A DNA stretch of 64,000 nucleotides from Fragilariopsis cylindrus CCMP1102 (taxonomy: Eukaryota > Bacillariophyta > Bacillariophyceae > Bacillariales > Bacillariaceae): positions 222,691 to 286,690 of the forward strand of contig FMBT01000340.1 in NCBI GenBank assembly GCA_900095095.1, written 5' to 3'. The notes under the pieces were generated by a model that saw only the letters and a program-made list of their open reading frames with translations, ran no database searches and was not told the DNA's origin. The position numbers and the translations under genes were made by a program. How positions within the stretch are numbered: the stretch's first letter is position 1; each line of letters opens with the position of its first letter. Shown piece by piece: positions 16,118 to 28,089 of this stretch.

Positions 16118-19105
16118 TTACGATCCTTTTTGATGTGGGTTTATCTTGAACAGTTCTCTGCATTTTTCACTGCAAAATACGTACTGTTCATTGTCTGGAT
16201 CAAATAAGCTGTTGGTCATACCGCAAGGTAGATGATGTACATACTTCTTGCAGTTGTTGTTATTGTTGCGGCATTTGTAAAGTCGGTTACTACAATCGCA
16301 GCCTGGTATATCACATCTTGCATTTTCTCCTCTACGATCAGTAGAATTGCCAGCATCTGCATTAGCTAAAGATTCTAAAGCTGCAGTAGCAACATCAGTA
16401 GGAGGCACGCCATTACCATTATTATTTGCAGTAGTAGTAGTAGTAGCAGTAGTAGTATGACCTCTTAGTAGAAGTTGTTGCTGGTGGGAAGCTTCTGCTT
16501 GTGCTTGGAGTTGTCGTCTCATGTTATCATTATTAATACGACCAAATTCAGCTTGTTGAGAACGACGCTGTGTGCCACGATTATTATTATTTGTATTACG
16601 GCTGCTGGTGGTGGTGGTAGTGGTGGTAGTGTTGTTGTTATTACTATTAGTAGTAGTAGCAGCAGCAGCAGCAGTAGCAGTAGCAGCAGTAGCAGTAGCA
16701 GTAGCAGTAGTAGTAGTGGTAGTAGTAGTGGTATTTCTGCGTTGTTGGCGGATTCGATGACGCACAGTAGTGGATGGGGTTCTTTTTCTTTTCTTCTGTT
16801 GTTGACTAGGATTGTTACAATTAGTAAGGGAAGGTAACAACAATTCTTTATCACAATCATTGCCATTTTTTCTTACGAATGAGGGAAGAATATGTTTTGA
16901 CCATGTTGATACTACCCAATTCAGTGCTTTATTCTTTCCATTTTTAAAACAAAAAGAAACCCGCTCTCTAAGTACTTTAATACATTCATCATGATATATT
17001 TTAAGATCATTATTTGTTATTAAATCAAAATCTTCTGGTAATGATAATGATACATGCTTTTCTAAGTATCTAAATATTGGACACCAATGCAGTTTGAACG
17101 TTGTTCTTAATGTAGTTGTTGGTAGTGATTTCGGCTTCAAATTTCTAAAGGGGCGAATGCGTTTCCCAGTTGTTGATGCATCCATACCACAGAACCAAAA
17201 AACAATACCAGCTTTTAGAGTAGCTGCTGTAGGAAAAGAGAAATGTTCGGGGACAAAATAAAAATGTCCACCATATGTAAATAGCATATCTGCTGCTACA
17301 CCTGCAGTTTGTACCTGAGATGTTGCTGCTGCTGATGTAGATACATTATTGGCACTACCACTACCACCTAGGCGTTCAACAAGGTTTTCGATTCGCTCAT
17401 CAAGATTTTCATTGTATCTTCGTTCAACCTCAGTAAACATCATTTGAATACGTTCATTTGTAGGATGGCCTGATTCTAAAGCGCGGTCCTCAAACTCATC
17501 ATGAATAGCTGCTCTAAGTTCAGCTGTTTGTGATTGTTGATTATCCCTAAATTCTTTAACAATACCAAGAACTTCCTGGATTGATCGTGCGTGATTAATG
17601 TGCGGGGGAATACCAGTTGTAACTGTCATTACACCATCGGTTGGATCAAGAGTAACAAGAGTTTTTAATCTGTCTAATAATTGACGGTTTAGATAATGAA
17701 GAATACTAATATTATTGAAATCATGACCAGGTATCTTCGTCATTTGTTCTCGTAATGAGTTTGAATGATAGACAAAACAAGCAAAAGATCGTACCAAGAT
17801 AGGGACAAAACATTGATGTTCTTCAAGAATATCCCCAAACATAATGTCCATACCACTTTTAATGTCATCATTTTTCATTGGATTAGTCATATTCCAATGT
17901 GGGGGCAACGTATCAAATTGATCTGAGTTGGCATCTAATCCGCTCAAAACTCGACCAAGATATTGATCTCCCACACTACCAAAGTGCCAATAACAGTCTA
18001 ATACCTTTCCTATACTCCATTCACCTCTTCTAGCAATTGAATTGAGTGACGGTGGGACTGTTGTACCAGCAACAGCATAAGTAGATGATCCTTTGCGAAA
18101 GCTATAAGCATTGAGTCGTTTTTCTTCCATGTGATTTTCAACTTCTTCTTTATGAGGTGCTACAACTGAAATAAGTTGTTCACAATAACTAGCAGAAGCT
18201 GTACCATCCTTAACACCTTTGTTTAGAAATAATTTGCTGTTTCCCTTCAACTTTTCTTCTCCCCGTAATGAAATCCAAATGCATAACCCTGTCCAAAAGC
18301 ATAAACGCCAATCATAAGGATTAGCAAATATATTCTTTTCTGATAAGCGTTCAGCATTTTTATCTGCTTTTGAGTCATCATATTTCACAACAATAGAATC
18401 AACACCAAGGCTAAAATTGCCAAAATGAAGTGGATCTATTGACGCTGATCTTGCCATACAGTTCCACTGTGACAACGTCCAGAACCAAACCATGATATTG
18501 TTTGTATCTAATGCCCATTGTAAAACCAGAACATATAATGTCATTGGAATTGGATCACTAGTGTTATCTTCTGTATTTCCTTTCTTCTTTGCATTTGTAA
18601 ACTCTTTTTTATATCCTTTAAGGAATTTTTCAATCTTTCTATAAAAGGATATAGGAAGTGGTTTATCCGCAGTCTTAGATCCCCACATAATAGCATCCTT
18701 GTACTTTCTAAGATCATCCCAACTCTTCAATTTTTTATCGGGTTTTGTCTTGGTCTTCGTCAAGAAGTACAGAAAATATTCAGCATTCAGTCCATCATAG
18801 ACAAGATCTTTCTTGTATTTACCTTTAAAGAAATACTTTGTTTTGTCATGCTGATCAGCTGTGCTTACATCAATTACACCAATTGCATAATATTCAGGGA
18901 GATGTTCTTCCCAATACTTCATGATTGCATTAAGTCTGTTACGATAATTGGTCCTACACTTGTCATCCATATCATACTTTGCTGTTTCGTTACACATCTC
19001 CTTATGGTCGTCAGGTAGAGCTAAACTTGCTCCAATAATAGGAACACTATCATTAGTGTTTCTATCATGAGCATAGTAGCGACCAGTTTGTGTTCCATTT
19101 GGCAT
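16118..19105 (-). CDS. Crypton-like tyrosine recombinase with C-terminal zinc finger
   Basis: Single-exon, intact ORF of 995 aa. Residues ~195-395 look like the tyrosine recombinase domain of eukaryotic Crypton-type elements: Arg219 in WNCMARSASIDPL (box I Arg), Lys241 in SIVVKYDDSK, Arg337 in AYSFRKGSSTYA (the HxxR box, with His replaced by Tyr334), Trp363 in RRGEW, and the candidate nucleophile Tyr372 in LDCYWHFG, followed by DQYLGRVLSGL. Residues ~610-720 (VFWFCGMDASTTGKRIRPFR, then LKPKSL) resemble the DNA-binding region downstream in such proteins. A long Thr/Asn/Ala low-complexity linker, encoded by trinucleotide repeats, leads to a Cys/His-rich finger (CDIPGCDC, CKKYVHHLPC, FCSEKC) at the C-terminus. 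It probably cuts and rejoins DNA to mobilise its element. The intact frame suggests recent activity or a retained role; whether the His-to-Tyr change allows catalysis is uncertain. Confidence 0.8.
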   Translation of the reverse strand: MPNGTQTGRYYAHDRNTNDSVPIIGASLALPDDHKEMCNETAKYDMDDKCRTNYRNRLNAIMKYWEEHLPEYYAIGVIDVSTADQHDKTKYFFKGKYKKDLVYDGLNAEYFLYFLTKTKTKPDKKLKSWDDLRKYKDAIMWGSKTADKPLPISFYRKIEKFLKGYKKEFTNAKKKGNTEDNTSDPIPMTLYVLVLQWALDTNNIMVWFWTLSQWNCMARSASIDPLHFGNFSLGVDSIVVKYDDSKADKNAERLSEKNIFANPYDWRLCFWTGLCIWISLRGEEKLKGNSKLFLNKGVKDGTASASYCEQLISVVAPHKEEVENHMEEKRLNAYSFRKGSSTYAVAGTTVPPSLNSIARRGEWSIGKVLDCYWHFGSVGDQYLGRVLSGLDANSDQFDTLPPHWNMTNPMKNDDIKSGMDIMFGDILEEHQCFVPILVRSFACFVYHSNSLREQMTKIPGHDFNNISILHYLNRQLLDRLKTLVTLDPTDGVMTVTTGIPPHINHARSIQEVLGIVKEFRDNQQSQTAELRAAIHDEFEDRALESGHPTNERIQMMFTEVERRYNENLDERIENLVERLGGSGSANNVSTSAAATSQVQTAGVAADMLFTYGGHFYFVPEHFSFPTAATLKAGIVFWFCGMDASTTGKRIRPFRNLKPKSLPTTTLRTTFKLHWCPIFRYLEKHVSLSLPEDFDLITNNDLKIYHDECIKVLRERVSFCFKNGKNKALNWVVSTWSKHILPSFVRKNGNDCDKELLLPSLTNCNNPSQQQKKRKRTPSTTVRHRIRQQRRNTTTTTTTTTATATATAATATAAAAATTTNSNNNNTTTTTTTTSSRNTNNNNRGTQRRSQQAEFGRINNDNMRRQLQAQAEASHQQQLLLRGHTTTATTTTTANNNGNGVPPTDVATAALESLANADAGNSTDRRGENARCDIPGCDCSNRLYKCRNNNNNCKKYVHHLPCGMTNSLFDPDNEQYVFCSEKCRELFKINPHQKGS

Positions 19106-19199
19106 GTTGAGATGATGATTGATATTCTATGAATGGATGACAGTAAATAGTATTTTATGAATGGATGAACCTACAGTAGTTACAGCAGCTAGCTCGTGC

Positions 19200-19600
19200 A
19201 AAGCAAATTAAAGCGGTGAAAATTTTGAATTTTGTGCGCTGATGGACATTTTTTCTCTAATTTTGGTAAGTAATAACTGTCCCTCTAAGTAATTAATAGT
19301 ACGCAGTAAATTAACACTGTGAAAATTCCAAATTTTGTGCGCTGATGGACATTTTTCTTTAGTTTTGGTTGGTACCCTCTAAGTAATTAATAGTACTATA
19401 GATTAAGCAGTACGTGTCTGAAAAGTATACGAGGGGCTGTTCAATTTTGTATACTTTTCACTGAGTACAACCGAGTACTAATAAATCACAGTAGAACTAG
19501 TATAAGGAAGTACACATCAGTACACACTGGTACTTTTGAAAAGTATTCGTATTTGGTATACTTTCTCTAAAAACAAGTGAATCCCGTATACTTTTACGTA
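19200..19600. repeat. Recombinase 5' flank: tandem 100-bp repeat and GTATACTTTT iterons
   Basis: A unit containing TTTTGTGCGCTGATGGACAT and TCTAAGTAATTAATAGTA occurs twice (about 19217-19305 and 19319-19395). It is followed by the decamer AAAAGTATAC or its reverse complement at 19421-19430, 19449-19458, 19556-19564 (one base short) and 19586-19595, with a variant at 19539-19546. The same decamer occurs as a pair at 15798-15818, beyond the other end of the recombinase gene. Confidence 0.7.
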
Positions 19601-19765
19601 AGACTGTACTGTACGATGTGAAGAATACTTACTTTTTGTTATTATTTCATGTCGTACATCGCAGCGATAATATTATGTACCGTACTGTAGCGACAATATA
19701 TGCAATCGTGTCAAAAACAAGAAAACACGCGCGAAAATGCCGCGCTTTTTCATTAAGCCTAAGTA

Positions 19766-19981
19766 CAGTATGCGCTCGATAAGAAATACACATTTAAGAA
19801 ATACACGCTCTGTAAGAAATACACCAGATCAGTTTTACCGGGACTCGTGACTAAATAGCCTGTAGTGGATCCCTTGTAGTGATTGATGGGTCACTCACGA
19901 CAATCATAAGAAACACACTCTCCAGTAAGAAACACACCAAGTCCGAAAATTGAGAGTGTATTTCTTATCGAGCGCTTACTG
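19766..19981. mobile_element. 216-bp MITE-like element with terminal inverted repeats
   Basis: The left end reads CAGTAT then GCTCGATAAGAAATACAC, and the right end is its reverse complement with one mismatch (CAGTAA then the same), giving inverted repeats of about 26 bp; the shared core is GCGCTCGATAAGAAATACAC. Inside, TAAGAAAYACAC recurs as five direct copies (two inside or next to the left repeat, others near 19817, 19908 and 19926). The CAGT start and a preceding TA resemble Tc1/mariner/pogo-type ends, but a matching TA is not seen directly at the right end. It has no coding capacity, so it would be a non-autonomous element. Confidence 0.75.
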
Positions 19982-20120
19982 CTGTAATGATTTTTCATAA
20001 AGGATTTTTTCTAAACAATTTTTTTAACTTGCCGAGCGGAAGATGGTCCAGTATTATCCTTTGTTCCCAAAAAATAATCAGTACTTTGTTCCGTCAAATC
20101 TAGCGTGTAAAGATGATGAA

Positions 20121-20489
20121 TGACGTACAGTAAGAAGTAATGTACAGTACTAGTACAGTACTGTCGTATAGTAAAATCCTTACTTGACCGCATTTTCCTC
20201 TCATCGCGGATCAAGTTCAAGTTGGTCGCGAGTGACGTATTCGTGACGTATCACATAAAGCGCGGCGAGTTCCCGTTTGTTTGCTGGATGTTGCTGATGT
20301 TCTGATGAATGTACGGTATGAAGAAATTTATGCAGAATGAAGTGAACCGAAACGATCCATTCTCATGTATTATTACATCGTTTCTATCTTGTTCGTGTGT
20401 TCGTTGCATAATCTTATAATTATCAAAGCAAAGGTAAGATGAGAGATGAGAGATGAGATGAGATTTTAAGTGATGAGATCTATTGACGT
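20121..20489 (+). promoter_or_regulatory. TGACGT cluster upstream of theta-CA gene 1
   Basis: TGACGT occurs at 20121-20126, 20233-20238, 20244-20249 and 20484-20489. This hexamer is the core of the CO2/cAMP-responsive elements described in the promoter of the Phaeodactylum beta-carbonic anhydrase PtCA1. Two copies sit 11 bp apart in a block (20199-20278) that is conserved upstream of the second carbonic anhydrase gene. Regulation by CO2 is inferred, not shown. Confidence 0.5.
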
Positions 20490-20653
20490 AATAAATGATA
20501 CGGATATATACTAATGGCTAGCTAGCTAGCTAGGTAGCTAGAGAGGAGATCGATCATTGCTTGCAAACACGGTGTACGATCGATCTTTTTCTTCTGTCGT
20601 ATTTATGAATTTTGCATCGCGTTTTATTGCAGTCATACAGTACACTCACATTA

Positions 20654-20685
<32 letters not shown>

Positions 20686-20736
20686 CACGTAAGATACATT
20701 TCCAGCATACTCGCATCGATCGATCGATCTACAATC

Positions 20737-21944
20737 ATGAAATTCTCTTCCGCTACTAGTAGTAGTAATGTTACTATTCTCTTATTGTTGGCGTCTTCCG
20801 TGAGTGCTTTCGTACCATCGAGATCATCATCATCGATGTTTCGTAGTAGTAGTACCCTTAACATTGTTGTTGGTGATACAGCAGAAGAATTTGCAGCACG
20901 GGTTCATTTTGCAGCAATGGATGAATCGACAACTAAATCACAAGAATTTGATGATATTGTACAGTCAACTTTTCCTGGTGCAATCACAAATCAAGTATTA
21001 GTACAAAATGCTGTTAGTCTTTTAAGTAAGAAGGGTTATGATGGTGAAAATACATTATTAGCAACAAGTTTATGTTGTGATGAATTAGCAAGAAAATTAG
21101 AAGATGATTTCAATGGTATATATGGAAAGAATTTTAATTTAGGTGGACTAGGTACGTTACGTAGTAGTAATAATTAATGAAACGTAAACTCTAAACTGTC
21201 GTTCGTTCGTGATCAATGACTGCTGCTCTACTCACGAAAGAGGTATCGTTGCAAAGATTTGTTCTCTTTTGTGTTCTACGGTTACAATCATTCCTATATA
21301 TATTATATTATGTCGGTGATCGGATCTCACTATCTGCATCTCGATCTCTCGTTCTTTCTCCTTTATATATTATTCGTCTCAATTCACTACATGTAGCTGG
21401 TTTTCCATTTGCTGGTAATACAGGATTTGGTGCAATGGCAGCACATATACCAGATGATGGATATTGTTTAGTTGTATATGGACCACATGTTGGTATTGCA
21501 GCAGATGGTACAGTTGGTAAAGTAGAAAGAGCTGGTATTGATTTAATTGATACATGTTGTGGGAGTGCAGTTGCTGCATCCAATTATGTAGATTCAATCA
21601 CAAATGGTGGTAGTAGTGCAACAATGCAAATTCAAACATTTACAGACTTTCAACAAAATGCTGTACAAGAATTAATTTTACCACATGGTAAAAGATTAGC
21701 GGATGCAAAAGAGAATCGAATGATTGAATTGCCCTATGCATTGTATGATTCACAAGATATGTTAATGGATGAAATTGTAAAAGGTGGATCGACTGGTATT
21801 AAACGTGGATTAGCTTTGTTGGGTGGTATACAAATTAATACTGGACCAGATACACCAGATTATTTTCATCCATTACGTTTTGACTACATGAATTATCGTG
21901 GTGAGACGATTGATGATTTGTTACCTGCATTATTAACATCCTAA
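20737..21944 (+). CDS. LCIB-type (theta) carbonic anhydrase, plastid-targeted, copy 1
   Basis: Two exons, 20737-21151 and 21397-21944, with a 245-bp intron (GTACGT...TAG), giving 320 aa. The N-terminus is a signal peptide ending in VSAF|VPS, an ASAF-like motif that in diatoms directs import into the complex plastid. The mature protein matches the LCIB/LCIC family: TSLCCDELARKLEDDF (Cys113/114, Asp-Glu), FPFAGNTGFGAMAAHIPDDG, VYGPHVGIAADGTVGKVER (His169) and DTCCGSAVAA (Cys192/193). The Cys, His and Cys are the probable zinc ligands known from structures of this family. Diatom members are theta-class carbonic anhydrases that interconvert CO2 and bicarbonate in the plastid/pyrenoid as part of the CO2-concentrating mechanism. 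The ATG at 20737 was chosen because it starts the signal peptide; the open frame extends further upstream without meaning. A close paralog follows in tandem. Confidence 0.93.
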
Positions 21945-22336
21945 TGTAATGAATAGGACCTGGAATGAAGTTGTGTGGAAGGCGATTGGTTTTATAATTA
22001 TCCATATAATAAAAATGATATTGATTATTTCTTGTATGTATTGTACTGTACTGTAATAGCAGGATATCGATATGTGTTTTTGTGTTAATGTTTGATTTTG
22101 TAGGTTATCGTAAAAGAAATTTTAAGATTGCGTTTTTTAGATTTCGTGATTTTTTCTTTTGTGAGATAAAACACCAACTTACGTACTGTTCTACGACGAC
22201 GACGATAGTGATGATGAAGGTGGTATAATTGTACTGGTTGGCTAAAGTACAGTAGATTGGCAGCCTCCCTACGCGGCGGGAACATTAAGTTGCGCGATAA
22301 TATAGTGGTTGTTGTATTACTGCCTCTTCCTCGCTC

Positions 22337-22370
<34 letters not shown>

Positions 22371-22718
22371 ACGATTGATCATCATTCGTGTGTTCGTGTA
22401 GCCGCCTCCCCTGGCATTCAGCCTGAATACACTGTACATATAAGGTGATCCATTCATTATTTTAATACACTACTTACCGGTACCCCTAAGATGGTTAGAA
22501 ACGCTACTACTACTGTTCATCTTGGTTGTATTTTAGGCACGATTCATTCATTCATTCATTCGCGCAACTCCTGCTTAGTACTGTAGTCTTCCCGCCGGCT
22601 GATAGAGGTTAACAATTTTATTTTTCAGTCATAAAAATAGCTGCTTTGGCTCGATTCGACTCGACTCACTCGACTTACAAAGGATGATACAGTCACGTAT
22701 GTAGTTCATTCACGATGA
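21945..22718. other. Intergenic between the two carbonic anhydrase genes
   Basis: AT-rich 3' flank of copy 1, then (CT)n at 22338-22369 and ATTC repeats near 22545-22562. No protein-like frame. The promoter of copy 2 begins in the following segment. Confidence 0.4.
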
Positions 22719-23123
22719 TGACGTACTACCGATAATTGTTCAAAAATAAAATCTTTTCACAAGACTGCAATCACAGAACTCTCATCGCGGATCAAGTTGA
22801 AGTCGTAGTTATGGTCGCGAGTGACGTATTTGTGTGAAGTTTTACATGCTTTTTTTGGAGGTCGACGCACAGCACAAAGCGCGGCGAGTTCCCGTTGTAA
22901 TTGTAATTGTTTGATGAATAAAAAAGGAATCTTCGATTTTACGACTGTAGAATTCAGTTCATTCATTTATTCCGAACTCTCTCCCACCTCAGATCTCATT
23001 ATAACAACGGAAGTTATTTTTCTCAAAAAATTCAAAGCAAAAGGTAAGGTGAAGATGAAGATAGCGTGATGAGATGAAGATGGAGATGGAGATGACGATG
23101 AAGATGACGAGTCGAGTTGAGTA

Positions 23124-23162
<39 letters not shown>

Positions 23163-23173
23163 TAATATGACGT
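22719..23173 (+). promoter_or_regulatory. TGACGT cluster and conserved block upstream of theta-CA gene 2
   Basis: TGACGT occurs at 22719-22724, 22822-22827 and 23168-23173. The block 22779-22896 shares CTCATCGCGGATCAAGTT, GGTCGCGAGTGACGTATT and AAAGCGCGGCGAGTTCCCGT with 20199-20278 upstream of copy 1. Further down, CAAAGCAAA(A)GGTAAG is conserved at 23033-23048 and 20424-20438; it looks like a 5'-UTR intron donor, which would place the transcription start between the block and this point. Confidence 0.5.
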
Positions 23174-23551
23174 AAATGATATAGGATATGGAGTGTACCG
23201 ATACCGGTAATTAACACGTTGTAAAATTGAGAGTATTAAGGGTATATAGAATCTGTCGCTAAGTCGCTACATATATAAACGATCGATCTGTTATTCCTCT
23301 GCTTCGCATTTTGCATCATACTTTCTTATTACACGCCACAATCAAACAATCACAATCACAATCACATACTCAAAGTCTCTCTCTCTCTTGATCTCTCCCT
23401 CTCTCCACGGACACTCCTTTCTTTCTCCACATTGATGTAAAACATGCCACGCCTTAATTTCCAGCAAATAATAGTTGTTACCGTACATACGACGGTCGCA
23501 AACATCACATCAATCGATTGACTTGACATCGATCTATTCTATAGTACAATC

Positions 23552-24899
23552 ATGATGAAATTCTTTTCCGCTACTAGTATCAGCCTTCTACTCTTGGTGT
23601 CTACCGTCAGTGCTTTCGCACCATCATCATCATCATCGATGATAATTCGATCATCATCATCGTCACCGTCGTCATCTGCACTTAATATTGTGGTTGGTGA
23701 TACAAAAGAAGCATTTGCAGATCGTGTAAAGTCTATATTTAAAACAAAAAAGAAATCGACCACCAAATCAGACAAATTTGATGATATTGTTCAATTAAAT
23801 TTTCCTGGTGCAATCACAAATCAAGAATTAGTACAAAAGTCTGTGAGTCTTTTAAGTAAGAAGGGTTATAATGGTGAAAATACTCTTCTTGCTACATCTT
23901 TATGTTGTGATGAATTAGCAAGAAAATTAGAAGATGATTTCAATGGTATATATGGAAAGAATTTTAATTTAGGTGGATTAGGTACGTTAACGTTACGTTT
24001 CGTTACTGTGTATATGTAGTAGTAGTAGTACTACTACTACTATCAGTAGTAGTATAAAAGCTGTAATATAAAACTGTATACTGAGTGTTACGCTGATATC
24101 ATTCTCGTCGTCGTGATGACTGCTGCTTCTCACAAGTGAAGGAATGAATGAACTATTGTACTGTTACTAAAATCATTCCTACATATTATGTTACATCATT
24201 ATGTCGGTCGTCGTACTGATCTCACTATCTGCTTGTCATTCCTTTCTATTATTCGTCGTCAAATCAAAATACAATACAAAAACAAATACGATACAAAATA
24301 AACTAGCTGGTTTTCCATTTGCTGGCAATACAGGATTTGGTGCAATGGCAGCACATATACCAGATGATGGATTTTGTTTGACAGTTTATGGACCACATGT
24401 TGGAATTGCAGCAGATGGTACAGTTGGTAAAGTAGAAAGATCTGGTATTGATTTAATTGATACATGTTGTGGTAGTGCAGTTGCTGCATCCAATTATGTG
24501 GATTCAATCACCAATGGTAAACGTGATATATCAATGCAAATTCAAACATTTACAGACTTTCAACAAAATGCTGTACAAGAATTAATTTTACCACATGGTA
24601 AACGGTTAGCAGATGCTGATATAGATGGTAAAAGAATGATTGAATTACCATATGCATTATATGATTCACAAAATATGTTATTATCTGAAATTGTGAAAGG
24701 TGGATCCACTGGTGTTAAACGTGGTATAGCATTATTAGGGGGTATACAAATTAATACTGGACCAGATACACCAGATTATTTTCATCCATTACGGTTTGAC
24801 TATATAAATTATCATGGTGATACTATTGATGATTTATTACCAGCATTAACTGGTGTTACAGATGATGATGATGATCCATTAGACCTATTTGAAAGATAA
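23552..24899 (+). CDS. LCIB-type (theta) carbonic anhydrase, plastid-targeted, copy 2
   Basis: Two exons, 23552-23981 and 24307-24899, with a 325-bp intron at the same codon as in copy 1 (GGL|AGFPF), giving 340 aa. It has a signal peptide ending VSAF|APS, the ASAF-like plastid signal, then a Ser-rich stretch. The zinc-site blocks are conserved: TSLCCDELARKLEDDF, FPFAGNTGFGAMAAHIPDDG, VYGPHVGIAADGTVGKVER and DTCCGSAVAA. It differs from copy 1 in a basic insert near residue 70 (KSIFKTKKKSTTKSDKFDD) and a longer acidic C-terminus. The role is as for copy 1: CO2/bicarbonate interconversion in the plastid. Head-to-tail arrangement, identical intron phase and shared upstream block show a tandem duplication that included the promoter. 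Confidence 0.93.
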
Positions 24900-26201
24900 G
24901 ATAGATAGATAAATGAAACAAAGTGAAACTAAACACCCGGAACGAACGGACGAGCTATTACGGTATACAGTATTTTGATAATATTATAAAAGAAGATATG
25001 AAACGAACGAGTGGAATGGAGGGGAGCCGATCCACTATTTAAAAAACTAATTAGCTAGCTAAGATATAGTACAATATTTTATAGTCATGATGAATATGTT
25101 TACGTTTTTACTACTGAAAAATATGTGAATTATATCGTTATACACTAGCACTGACATGGTACACTGTAATGTAGTTGCTGTATTATTGCAGCATTCTTTT
25201 TCAAGTACACTGTACTAAGTAGATGGACGTCAAGCAGTACCGTACCGAACGCGTTGAAAGTAAAGAACGTTCTTATGTCGCGTCTACAGTACAAAAGTAG
25301 TACTGTAAGTACAAAGAATGGCATTGTTTGTTGTACATGTTTCGCCTTTTCTCCTTTCTAAATCTTGCCTACAAAGCAAACTTTGCATTTGATTGAAGTA
25401 GCTTTAGTGAATGACAGACGTCAATCGTCAATTAATATGGGACTCACTCACTCAGGACTAAATAGTCAGCACGTGATTTGTTTTGATACTTGAAGTACTT
25501 ACAACGAATGTGACTAAAAAAGTTTATTAGTTAAGTATCGCGCGTCGCCTTCTTCAATAAAAGAATAAATGTTATCGCTCAGGCAGAATTTAAAACATTG
25601 AAGTCTGTAAGTATCATCGTGTACAACGATATAATCTTGTACGATACACAACATAATATTATGTTGTTTACTTCCCAACGCACGACCAAAATTTCATTCA
25701 TCGCGGAGAGAGAACAAGAGAACACTTCTTAGTTGTTCGAGGATGCTCCAGGAGTTGTGTGTTGTCAACGAACGACCCGATACGAATGTTTGTTGTTGAA
25801 CTAATTTTTATTATTAACTCAACGAACAAAGAAATCTGGTGTCAGGTCAAGCTGACCAAGCTGGCTGCAACAAAGAAATATGGTGTCAGCCAGCAAGCCA
25901 AGCCAAGCCAAGCAAGCTGCAACAAAGAAATATGGTGTCAGCCAAGCCAAGCAAACTGCTGCTGCTGCGAACAGAATCAGAATCGGAATCAACAACAAAA
26001 AAGAATTTTGAAGGAGAAGAAGAAGAAAAGAAAAATTGATGTGCATCACATGATATGAGACACTGTGTCAATCATGATCATGATGAGCACACAACATTTG
26101 AATATCTTCACAAAGCAAACAGAAACAAAAATACAAATAGTAATCTTTCAATTACGACGAAGACAAAGCAATAAACAAAACAATCAAGGTTCATCATTAT
26201 A
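24900..26201. other. Intergenic, upstream region of the symporter gene
   Basis: Contains two ACGTCA sites (25227-25232 and 25418-25423), the reverse complement of TGACGT. Segments at about 25461-25556 and 25686-25775 reappear in inverted orientation at 31400-31685. AACAAAGAAATMTGGTGTCAG followed by GCCAAGC-type repeats is iterated three times at 25825-25955. No gene was recognised. Confidence 0.5.
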
Positions 26202-28089
26202 ATGATGAATGACGATACTACTACTACCGGTACTGTAAAGAAAAATGGATTTTGTGCATTGACACAAAACCATCAAATTTTAACAATCTTAATTTTTGCA
26301 ATCATTGGTGTTGGAGTTGGTGTTGGATTATCATTTTGGGAATTAGACGATCCCAATGATGATACCAAAAAGATTACCTTGCAATGGATTGGTTTACTTG
26401 GTGATTTATTCTTACGTTCCTTGAAATGTTTTGTCTTACCACTAGTATTTGTCAATGTAATTATCTCGGTAGTCGATATGATGACTATTGGTAAAGCATC
26501 GTCCATTGGTTGGACTGTGATTGGATTATATTTATTAACAACTGTTGCTGCTGCTGTAAGTAATAGAAAATTTGTTTTTCACATTCGTGTCCGTTATTAA
26601 TTTGTATTTCTAATTCGTTTGTTCTCCTCCCCCCACCTCTTTCTTTCTCTCTTTTATTTCATCTTAAAAATCAAAACAAAACAACAAATCCCAGTTCTTT
26701 GGAAGTATGTCTACTCTAATGTTTATGGGATTATACAATACTGAAGAGAACGACGCTGATAATGTTGTTGTCGATACAAGTCCATATGTACAATTAGAAT
26801 GTGGTGATGAGGGTTCCTTATCCTTTCTTGGTGAAGATGACAGTGGAACTATTTCATGTTCTACAAACAATGCTGGTTCCCAATTTATGATTTTTGATGT
26901 CAATAATGTCTTTGCCACTACGAATACTGTTGTGAAATCGTCAGTGGCACAAGTCTCATTGTCCGATACCATATATAATGGAATTTTTACAAAAATCGTT
27001 CCGAATAATATTATTGGTGCCTTTGCTGGTAATAATTTTGCTGCAGTTATTTTTTTTGCAATTATTTTTGGTGCAGCACTGAGTCCATTAGTTTCAAAGA
27101 AAGAAAACTCTGAAGGAAAAACATTAATGGCAATTTTTCAGGAATCCGATAATGTCTTTCAACGTATTATTCGATGGATTATTATGTTAACACCGTATGC
27201 CGTCTGTTCCTTAATTGCTGAAGCAATTGGTGATCAAGATGATTTACCAGCATTATTTGCCAATATTGGTTTATTAATGGCCTCTGCCATGATTGCTTGG
27301 ATCTTGCAAATTGTGTTTGTTTATATGGGTGTGTTTGCAGTATTGACCAAATCCAATCCCATTACCTATTTACAACATATTGTCCCTGCACAAATTTTTG
27401 CCTTCGCCTGTGCCTCCTCTGCTGCCACAATTCCTATTTCATTGGCTGCTGTGAAAGCAACTGGACGTGTACCAGATACTATTGGACGATTCGTGATTCC
27501 GTAAGTTATTTTTCTTTCCTTTCCTCTTTTTTCCCATTCCGTGTCAATATTAAAGCAATATCTAATTCCATTTTTTGTTTTTCTTTCTTTGCCTTCTTTT
27601 TCTACATCTATATTTTCTTCTACTACTACTGCCACTACCACTACTATTTCATATAGTCTTGGTGCTACTGTGAATATGGATGGTGGTGCTGTATACTTCG
27701 TGTGTGCATGTATCTGGTTAGCAGTCTTAAATGGTGAAGAAATTACAGTGGCATCCTTTCTATTACTGATTATTATTGCCACAGTTGGTTCGATTGGTAC
27801 TGCACCGGTACCATCGGCATCATTAGTATTAATTATTACTGCCTACAATACTGTCTTTAATACAGTCGGTACACCCAATGGATTCGGATATATTTTAGCA
27901 ATTGATTGGTTCATGGATCGATGTCGAACAGCAACAAATATTACTGGTGATTGTGTCGTGGCAGGTATTGTGGCACATCGATGTCCAATTACTGATGATG
28001 AAGATGGTGACATGGAAGACATTAATAAAGAGATGGCAATTGATAACAAAATGGAGAACGACAACGATTCAGAAGAAGAAAATGCCTAA
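26202..28089 (+). CDS. Na+/dicarboxylate (glutamate-transporter-like, DAACS) symporter
   Basis: Three exons: 26202-26555, 26695-27500 and 27657-28089 (introns of 139 and 156 bp, GTAAGT donors), giving 530 aa. Hydrophobic segments follow the DAACS fold: TM1 near residue 30 (LTILIFAIIGVGVGVGLSF), FLRSLKCFVLPLVFVNVIIS, then a large loop with Cys residues, NNFAAVIFFAIIFGAALSPL, HP1-like SSAATIPISL, the TM7 motif PLGATVNMDGGAVYF, and HP2-like IGTAPVPSASLVL. The NMDG motif and the HP1/HP2 serine-rich loops bind sodium and the acidic substrate in this family. The protein would import acidic amino acids or dicarboxylates using the sodium gradient. Localisation is most likely the plasma membrane. The C-terminus is acidic and cytosolic. 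Junctions are firm because FVIP|LGATVNMDG is restored exactly. Confidence 0.93.

Follow-up and report, generated by a model that had tools for sequence, protein, structure and literature searches.

A composite TGACGT-containing block upstream of tandem theta-carbonic anhydrase genes in Fragilariopsis cylindrus

Several copies of TGACGT stand before two neighboring genes of the diatom Fragilariopsis cylindrus CCMP1102 that are predicted to encode theta-carbonic anhydrases (CAs) of the LCIB family. This raises the question of whether the upstream DNA is a selected regulatory element and whether, as a preliminary description proposed, it belongs to one CO2-sensing circuit that drives unrelated classes of CA. 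The genes lie in a window of 64,000 nucleotides (contig FMBT01000340.1, positions 222,691 to 286,690 of the forward strand), whose numbering is used throughout. A block containing TGACGT is conserved between these genes and two further LCIB copies, keeps a near-constant distance from a probable splice donor upstream of them and co-occurs with them. We judge, at a probability of roughly 60%, that the block is a composite cis-regulatory module, pairing a bZIP site with a CGCG-type partner site, in the promoters of one LCIB/theta-CA clade.

A conserved block upstream of one theta-CA clade

By their domains, genes 1 and 2 are the tandem LCIB/theta-CA pair that had been described: all four exon frames pass the curated PF18599 cut-off, and their solved structural relatives include 9vzj, 6kfs and PtLCIB4 5b5y (best E 4e-70). 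Their CA activity is predicted from the domain. The start codons lie at 20737 (gene 1) and 23552 (gene 2), and both proteins open with a hydrophobic leader carrying an SAF motif. Leaders of the SAF type direct proteins to the plastid in diatoms, and the clade is probably plastid-targeted.

The similarity previously placed at 20199-20278 and 22779-22896 is real and larger than first described. The block reads YCRCGGATCAAGTTSAAGT plus GGTCGCGARTGACGTA across its copies, aligned as YCRCGGATCAAGTTSAAGT then TGGTCGCGARTGACGTAY, and its parts outside TGACGT are GGTCGCGA and the CGCGGATCAAGTT arm. In gene 2, eight extra bases separate the two halves. The block also precedes two more LCIB copies, on contigs C417 and C4, which were found by protein search and again by motif in the 67.9-Mb genome (818 contigs). 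The features of the window are as follows.

20121 to 20126, plus strand: TGACGT upstream of gene 1, outside the block and inside a stretch duplicated on contig C91
20200 to 20240, plus strand: composite block of gene 1, CTCATCGCGGATCAAGTTCAAGT and TGGTCGCGAGTGACGTAT; matches C417 over 43 bp (91%) and C4 over 46 bp (91%)
starting at 20233, plus strand: TGACGT of the gene 1 block
20244 to 20249, plus strand: second TGACGT of gene 1, 11 bp after the first
20257 to 20277, plus strand: GC-rich AAAGCGCGGCGAGTTCCCGTT upstream of gene 1, common to genes 1 and 2 only
20428 to 20438, plus strand: GCAAAGGTAAG, probable donor of an intron in the 5'-untranslated region (UTR) of gene 1
20484 to 20489, plus strand: TGACGT of gene 1, 3' of the probable donor
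20737 to 21151, plus strand: gene 1 exon 1, with the SAF leader and the N-terminal part of the LCIB domain
21397 to 21944, plus strand: gene 1 exon 2, LCIB_C_CA domain (PF18599, E 2.5e-51)
22719 to 22724, plus strand: TGACGT of gene 2, 5' of its block
22781 to 22829, plus strand: composite block of gene 2; matches C417 over 51 bp (78%) and C4 over 51 bp (80%)
starting at 22822, plus strand: TGACGT of the gene 2 block
22876 to 22896, plus strand: GC-rich AAAGCGCGGCGAGTTCCCGTT upstream of gene 2
23037 to 23048, plus strand: GCAAAAGGTAAG, probable 5'-UTR intron donor of gene 2
23168 to 23173, plus strand: TGACGT of gene 2, 3' of the probable donor
23552 to 23981, plus strand: gene 2 exon 1
24307 to 24899, plus strand: gene 2 exon 2, LCIB_C_CA domain (E 1.1e-49)

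Compared with each other alone, genes 1 and 2 give no proof of selection because they are too young: 31 of 114 four-fold degenerate sites differ (synonymous divergence, dS, 0.34), and their introns align as well (score 61). Conservation of the block amid diverged DNA is not decisive within this pair, and it is the addition of the C417 copy (dS 0.96) that makes it so. Genes 1 and 2 each differ from C417 at 56 of 94 four-fold sites. Their introns score 22 and 26 against those of C417, like shuffled upstream DNA, while the upstream alignments of genes 1 and 2 to C417 and C4 score 52-72 against shuffled maxima of 26-30 (50 shuffles each). At E 1e-3, the block is the sole upstream match of either gene to C417 or C4, where its right half recurs 72-75 bp farther upstream. 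These two copies may be allelic or recently duplicated, at one locus or two. The LCIB copy on C417 has one frame change and that on C4 several, which may reflect assembly error, an allele or a decaying duplicate; the C4 copy ends at the contig edge.

The position of the block is conserved as well. From TCGCGA to GGTAAG, which is found in all four upstream regions, the distance is 207 bp in gene 1, 228 bp in gene 2, 265 bp in C417 and 264 bp in C4, while that from TCGCGA to the ATG varies between 397 and 737 bp. The conserved GCAAA(A)GGTAAG pointed out earlier is indeed found before both genes, with the variant GCAAGGTAAG in C417 and C4. This near-fixed spacing probably reflects a 5'-UTR exon that ends at GCAA(A)(A)GGTAAG and is followed by an intron of variable length.

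Could the similarity be a functionless, passive remnant of duplication or mobile DNA? DNA at this locus has certainly been copied: positions 20046-20221 recur at 79% identity on C91 (L060) before a Duc1-domain gene, in a segmental copy that ends inside the block, and a MITE-like element (miniature inverted-repeat transposable element) lies just upstream. Such a remnant would nonetheless have to persist across a dS of about 1, over which the C417 introns and other upstream DNA give no match, and to hold a near-constant position relative to the splice donor. We consider this explanation very improbable.

In the composite-module reading, the right half, GGTCGCGARTGACGTA, would combine a CGCG-type site with TGACGT as a bZIP site, and the left half, CRCGGATCAAGTTSAAGT, would be a further protein-binding site, one also kept without TGACGT before another gene. 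A CREB/ATF-like bZIP protein would bind TGACGT while a partner occupies the TCGCGA/CGCGGATCAA part, and the 5'-UTR exon would begin a short way downstream of the block. Once bound, the block would set theta-CA transcription according to carbon and/or light state. Protein binding, the bZIP identity of the factor, splicing and the transcription start are predictions of this model, and a CO2 circuit acting on the theta-CA genes is plausible within it.

Two other views of the block were set aside. A structured RNA found no support: the five weak Rfam matches in 18500-26000 all fall below the gathering score, and none lies on the block. Inverted repeats are absent within the gene 1 block, and around the gene 2 block there is a single 13-nt pair of 77%. 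Downstream of gene 2, at 26668-27504, lies a sodium:dicarboxylate symporter gene (PF00375).

TGACGT and the block across the genome

The TGACGT copies counted earlier on the coding strand, four in the 620 bp before gene 1 and three in the 840 bp before gene 2, are confirmed in position. Background density on both strands is 0.32 per kb (52 sites in 160.9 kb, a set in which some loci overlap, are twins or were chosen for near-matches, and from which 19100-25400 of the window is excluded) and 0.24 per kb in a stricter set (29 sites in 119.8 kb). This agrees with the assumed chance level of well under one same-strand copy per kb. At 0.32 per kb, the same-strand expectation is 0.10 sites for the 620 bp of gene 1 and 0.14 for the 840 bp of gene 2, giving Poisson P values of about 4e-6 and 4e-4, respectively. 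Local enrichment before both genes is strong, although the sites are not all independent, because 20121 sits in the stretch copied on C91 and 20233/20244 form a local pair. Among 39 proxy promoters of 1 kb each, defined from open reading frames, 29 have no TGACGT, eight have one and two have two. Across the whole window, TGACGT is not enriched (25 sites versus 30.5 expected; at least 25 in 92 of 100 shuffles).

TGACGT is found upstream of all six distinct LCIB genes, counting C417 and C4 once and leaving out C671, a probable twin of C524 whose upstream DNA fell outside the sequence analyzed. The six upstream regions add up to 6 kb and contain 19 strand-sites, roughly tenfold the background density; four palindromes enter this total twice. 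By gene, the number within 1 kb on both strands is six for C324, four each for gene 1 and C4, three each for gene 2 and C417, two for C524 and one for C354, the last at a level that chance could give. Of the four palindromes, three belong to C324 and one to C524. Before the C324 gene (49% identical), a tandem repeat 357-480 bp from the ATG holds TGACGTCACGCTGACGTCA and a third copy of TGACGTCA. The C524 gene (32% identical) has TGACGTCACGTTGCGTCA at -499. TGACGT stands as TGACGTCA before two LCIB genes. Both promoters have TGACGT on both strands, C524 with one GCGTCA in addition. Half-sites are spaced 11 bp apart in C324 and gene 1 (20233/20244) and 10 bp in C524. Neither of these two promoters has the composite block.

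Motif searches covered the 67.9-Mb genome with up to three mismatches and used backward-read patterns as controls. The left arm, CGCGGATCAAGTTSAAGT, is exact at six of 90 places among the matches listed, namely the four LCIB copies and one SDR (dehydrogenase) promoter present on two contigs, C84 and C144, that are 95.6% alike; its only single-mismatch match among those listed is the C91 copy. Likewise among the matches listed, AAGTTGGTCGCGARTGACGT is exact at four of ten places (C4, C417, gene 1 and C532), and GGTCGCGARTGACGT occurs in seven of 23 rows, six of them before LCIB copies (two each in C417 and C4) and the seventh in C532. By these matches, the module extends to a small number of other genes, and parts of it besides TGACGT are selected. 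The view of TGACGT as the conserved core thus stands for the selected theta-CA element but not for TGACGT alone as the conserved unit, as the SDR promoter retains CCGCGGATCAAGTTGAAGTTGGTCGCGAATA, 449-460 bp before the ATG, without TGACGT. Loose matching was dropped as a way of finding a regulon after the backward controls, and exact matches were preferred. Matches on C90 and C597 (AAGTTGGTCGCGAGTGAAGC, two mismatches) were set aside, with no TGACGT in the C90 stretch and no clear target; these are probably one locus, because the 901 bp compared are identical.

Two of the matches lie near genes with a plastid connection. On C532, GGTCGCGAGTGACGT stands 272 bp from the ATG, on the other strand, of a gene for a Cys-rich protein that has a plastid-type leader and no Pfam match. 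On C253, TTTGTCGCGAGTGACGTAAA stands 307 bp before the ATG of a light-harvesting gene closest to the fucoxanthin-chlorophyll proteins (FCPs) of the Protein Data Bank, with its best match to 6ly5, presumably a diatom structure. These raise the possibility that the block serves light, plastid or photosynthetic control and not a CO2 response, with TGACGT as a general ACGT-core bZIP site, a view compatible with a composite module. It gains from the strong light dependence of PtCA2 reported in the accessible text of PMC7378808. The C253 match, however, has two mismatches, is near chance level and proves nothing alone, because backward patterns match nearly as often. The C532 target may instead be a gene on the other flank, where a short open exon 453 bp away is probably the start of a PRA1-like gene, and targets are few overall. 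We regard a purely light- or plastid-related role as possible but doubtful.

Several points weigh against the composite module, itself a reading of DNA sequence. C417 and C4 count as one lineage because, at 89.7% identity over 3.8 kb, they are possibly alleles or recent duplicates. Between gene 2 and C4, the intron score is 34, somewhat higher than those with C417, and the shuffles were made for upstream DNA and not for introns. TGACGT may not be an essential part, because the SDR copy lacks it. With up to three mismatches, the backward controls return 87 rows versus 90 for CGCGGATCAAGTTSAAGT, 6 versus 10 for AAGTTGGTCGCGARTGACGT and 9 versus 23 for GGTCGCGARTGACGT, and because they come so close no genome-wide regulon can be read from degenerate matches. 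Finally, of the two-strand set known from PtCA1, the 1 kb before genes 1 and 2 contains no ACGTCA, no TGACGC and no GCGTCA.

Other carbon genes and a shared CO2 circuit

A second alternative is that the TGACGT sites are PtCA1-type CO2/cAMP-responsive elements (CCREs) and that theta-CAs and other CA classes are under the joint control of a single bZIP11-like circuit. Its first half is compatible with a composite module and is favored by the presence of TGACGT before all six distinct LCIB genes and by the two-strand layout of cAMP-responsive elements (CREs) in C324 and C524. Control of PtCA1 by PtbZIP11 through TGACGT, the PtBST1 set and a common element in Thalassiosira pseudonana are, moreover, in print, as far as the accessible text of the papers cited below goes. 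Two of the nine genomic places with TGACGTN5TGACGT (11 rows, two places on both strands) precede LCIB genes, but paired TGACGT is not enriched genome-wide, because the backward control returns 22 rows, and neither is TGACGTCA (1017 occurrences, about 0.015 per kb, versus 1055 backward). Another such pair, on C635, has no recognizable gene among the open frames in 1.8 kb, where no family search was made.

The second half of this proposal fares less well. No beta-CA (PF00484) was detected in an exon-by-exon search of the genome, in which a divided gene could be missed; in this respect F. cylindrus is unlike Phaeodactylum. Genes for alpha-CA, SLC4 and weakly scoring bestrophin-like proteins were found, and the GATCAAGTT arm is absent upstream of all nine compared (two alpha-CA, two bestrophin-like and five SLC4), delta, zeta, gamma and iota CAs lying outside the search. 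TGACGT is at most mildly raised there, with 5 sites in 7.2 kb versus 2.3 expected (P about 0.09), where SLC4 distances run from the first matched exon instead of the start codon, that of the C612 alpha-CA is guessed and one alpha-CA contributes 251 bp only. This set omits C522 (twin of C121), C164 (frame open to the stretch end), the C459 alpha-CA, the C411 SLC4 and the C81 bestrophin-like twin. Upstream of the two bestrophin-like genes, TGACGT is absent over 616 and 998 bp. TCGCGA occurs before two of the nine genes, both SLC4. In C184, ATGGTCGCGATTG lies 629 bp upstream of the first matched SLC4 exon with two opposite-strand TGACGT nearby; its TCGCGA stands as GGTCGCGA, absent from 132 kb of background, without an adjoining TGACGT, which is at most a hint. 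TGACGT enrichment in promoters of the CO2-concentrating mechanism (CCM) thus holds for LCIB genes and not clearly for the others, and in the classes searched nothing supports the proposed single circuit shared by unrelated kinds of CA. With the two-strand set also missing from genes 1 and 2, we think the shared circuit as a whole unlikely.

We would tentatively go further, at odds clearly against us, and suggest that the block works as a carbon-status switch of a new, two-factor kind, in which a bZIP site is fused with a CGCG/GATCAAGTT site. It would mark a small regulon of the theta-CA clade, the SDR gene, the Cys-rich plastid-type protein and possibly an FCP and an SLC4, while other theta-CA genes would use plain paired CREs 10-11 bp apart. 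In the accessible text of the cited papers, diatom CO2 control is described in terms of a 6-bp core present in a few promoters. By itself, so short a motif can hardly pick out genes, because one TGACGT is met every 3-4 kb of the genome sampled here. If the switch exists, it would be the CGCG arm, and not TGACGT, that directs it to particular genes, a task beyond a 6-bp CRE. Because the block is long and selected and offers a second half to search for, that specificity could be tested in related diatoms by sequence and reporters.

Two observations on the carbon genes stand apart from the block. The MITE-like element, whose terminal inverted repeat (GCGCTCGATAAGAAATACAC) is perfect over 20 bp, occurs at three places (window 19762-19981, L036 5180-5429 and L053 2817-2999), upstream of gene 1, the C324 LCIB gene and the C184 SLC4 gene and 615-975 bp from the ATG or first matched exon, a count that covers only the DNA examined, a set biased to carbon genes, with no genome-wide count made. 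The bestrophin-like matches on C340 and C137 (L077 58-1320 and L078 545-1701) score just over the Pfam cut-off; the upstream open frames adjoining them carry a cyclic-nucleotide-binding domain (PF00027, E 2e-16 and 1e-12), and the cut exon frame of C137 alone has no Pfam match. If spliced together, these frames could possibly encode cAMP-gated anion channels. This combination was not found for diatoms in our literature search, which left most subscription papers outside its scope.

Comparison with known diatom CO2/cAMP elements

Among the titles and passages covered, none reports a composite TCGCGA-TGACGT element in diatoms; here too most subscription papers lay outside the search. By their titles, the papers listed for GTCGCGAGTGACG all concern E. 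coli or bacterial diarrhoea, and these hits were taken as primer strings.

In the accessible text of the papers cited here, the CCREs of PtCA1 and PtCA2 comprise TGACGT, ACGTCA and TGACGC on both strands, at -86 to -42 from the transcription start (PMC7378808, PMC11142338). PtbZIP11 binds the ptca1 element (PMC7215798), and CCRE1-3 of PtCA1/PtCA2 are its target (Ohno et al. 2012; Tanaka et al. 2016, via PMC7378808, PMC7215798 and PMC11142338). The P. tricornutum theta-CA is described as luminal and as important at high CO2 too (PMC7215798), and a negative correlation of theta-CA with pCO2 is reported for the small size fractions of Tara (PMC8119650).

As in these promoters, so far as they are described there, a TGACGT core stands before diatom CA genes in several copies per promoter, and genes 1 and 2 show the CCRE-type feature of TGACGT above background (4 and 3 sites versus 0.24-0.32 per kb). 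Identity with the PtCA1 set is not supported: before genes 1 and 2, TGACGT is joined to a conserved GGTCGCGAR and the CRCGGATCAAGTTSAAGT arm and lies on the coding strand only, without TGACGC in 1 kb, and the enzymes are theta-CA/LCIB rather than beta-CA. PtBST1, another CCM gene, likewise has TGACGT/C repeats in its promoter, in a two-strand set, and promoters with motifs on one strand might be regulated differently (PMC11142338, accessible text). Its inverted layout resembles the LCIB promoters of C324 and C524 more than those of genes 1 and 2. The idea that a single element serves different CCM genes has already been published for T. pseudonana, where, by the description in PMC7378808 of Hennon et al. 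2015, a CO2-responsive cluster of CCM and photorespiration genes, delta-CA included, has a common upstream element; as far as that description allows comparison, the likeness lies in one TGACGT-type element spanning several carbon gene families.

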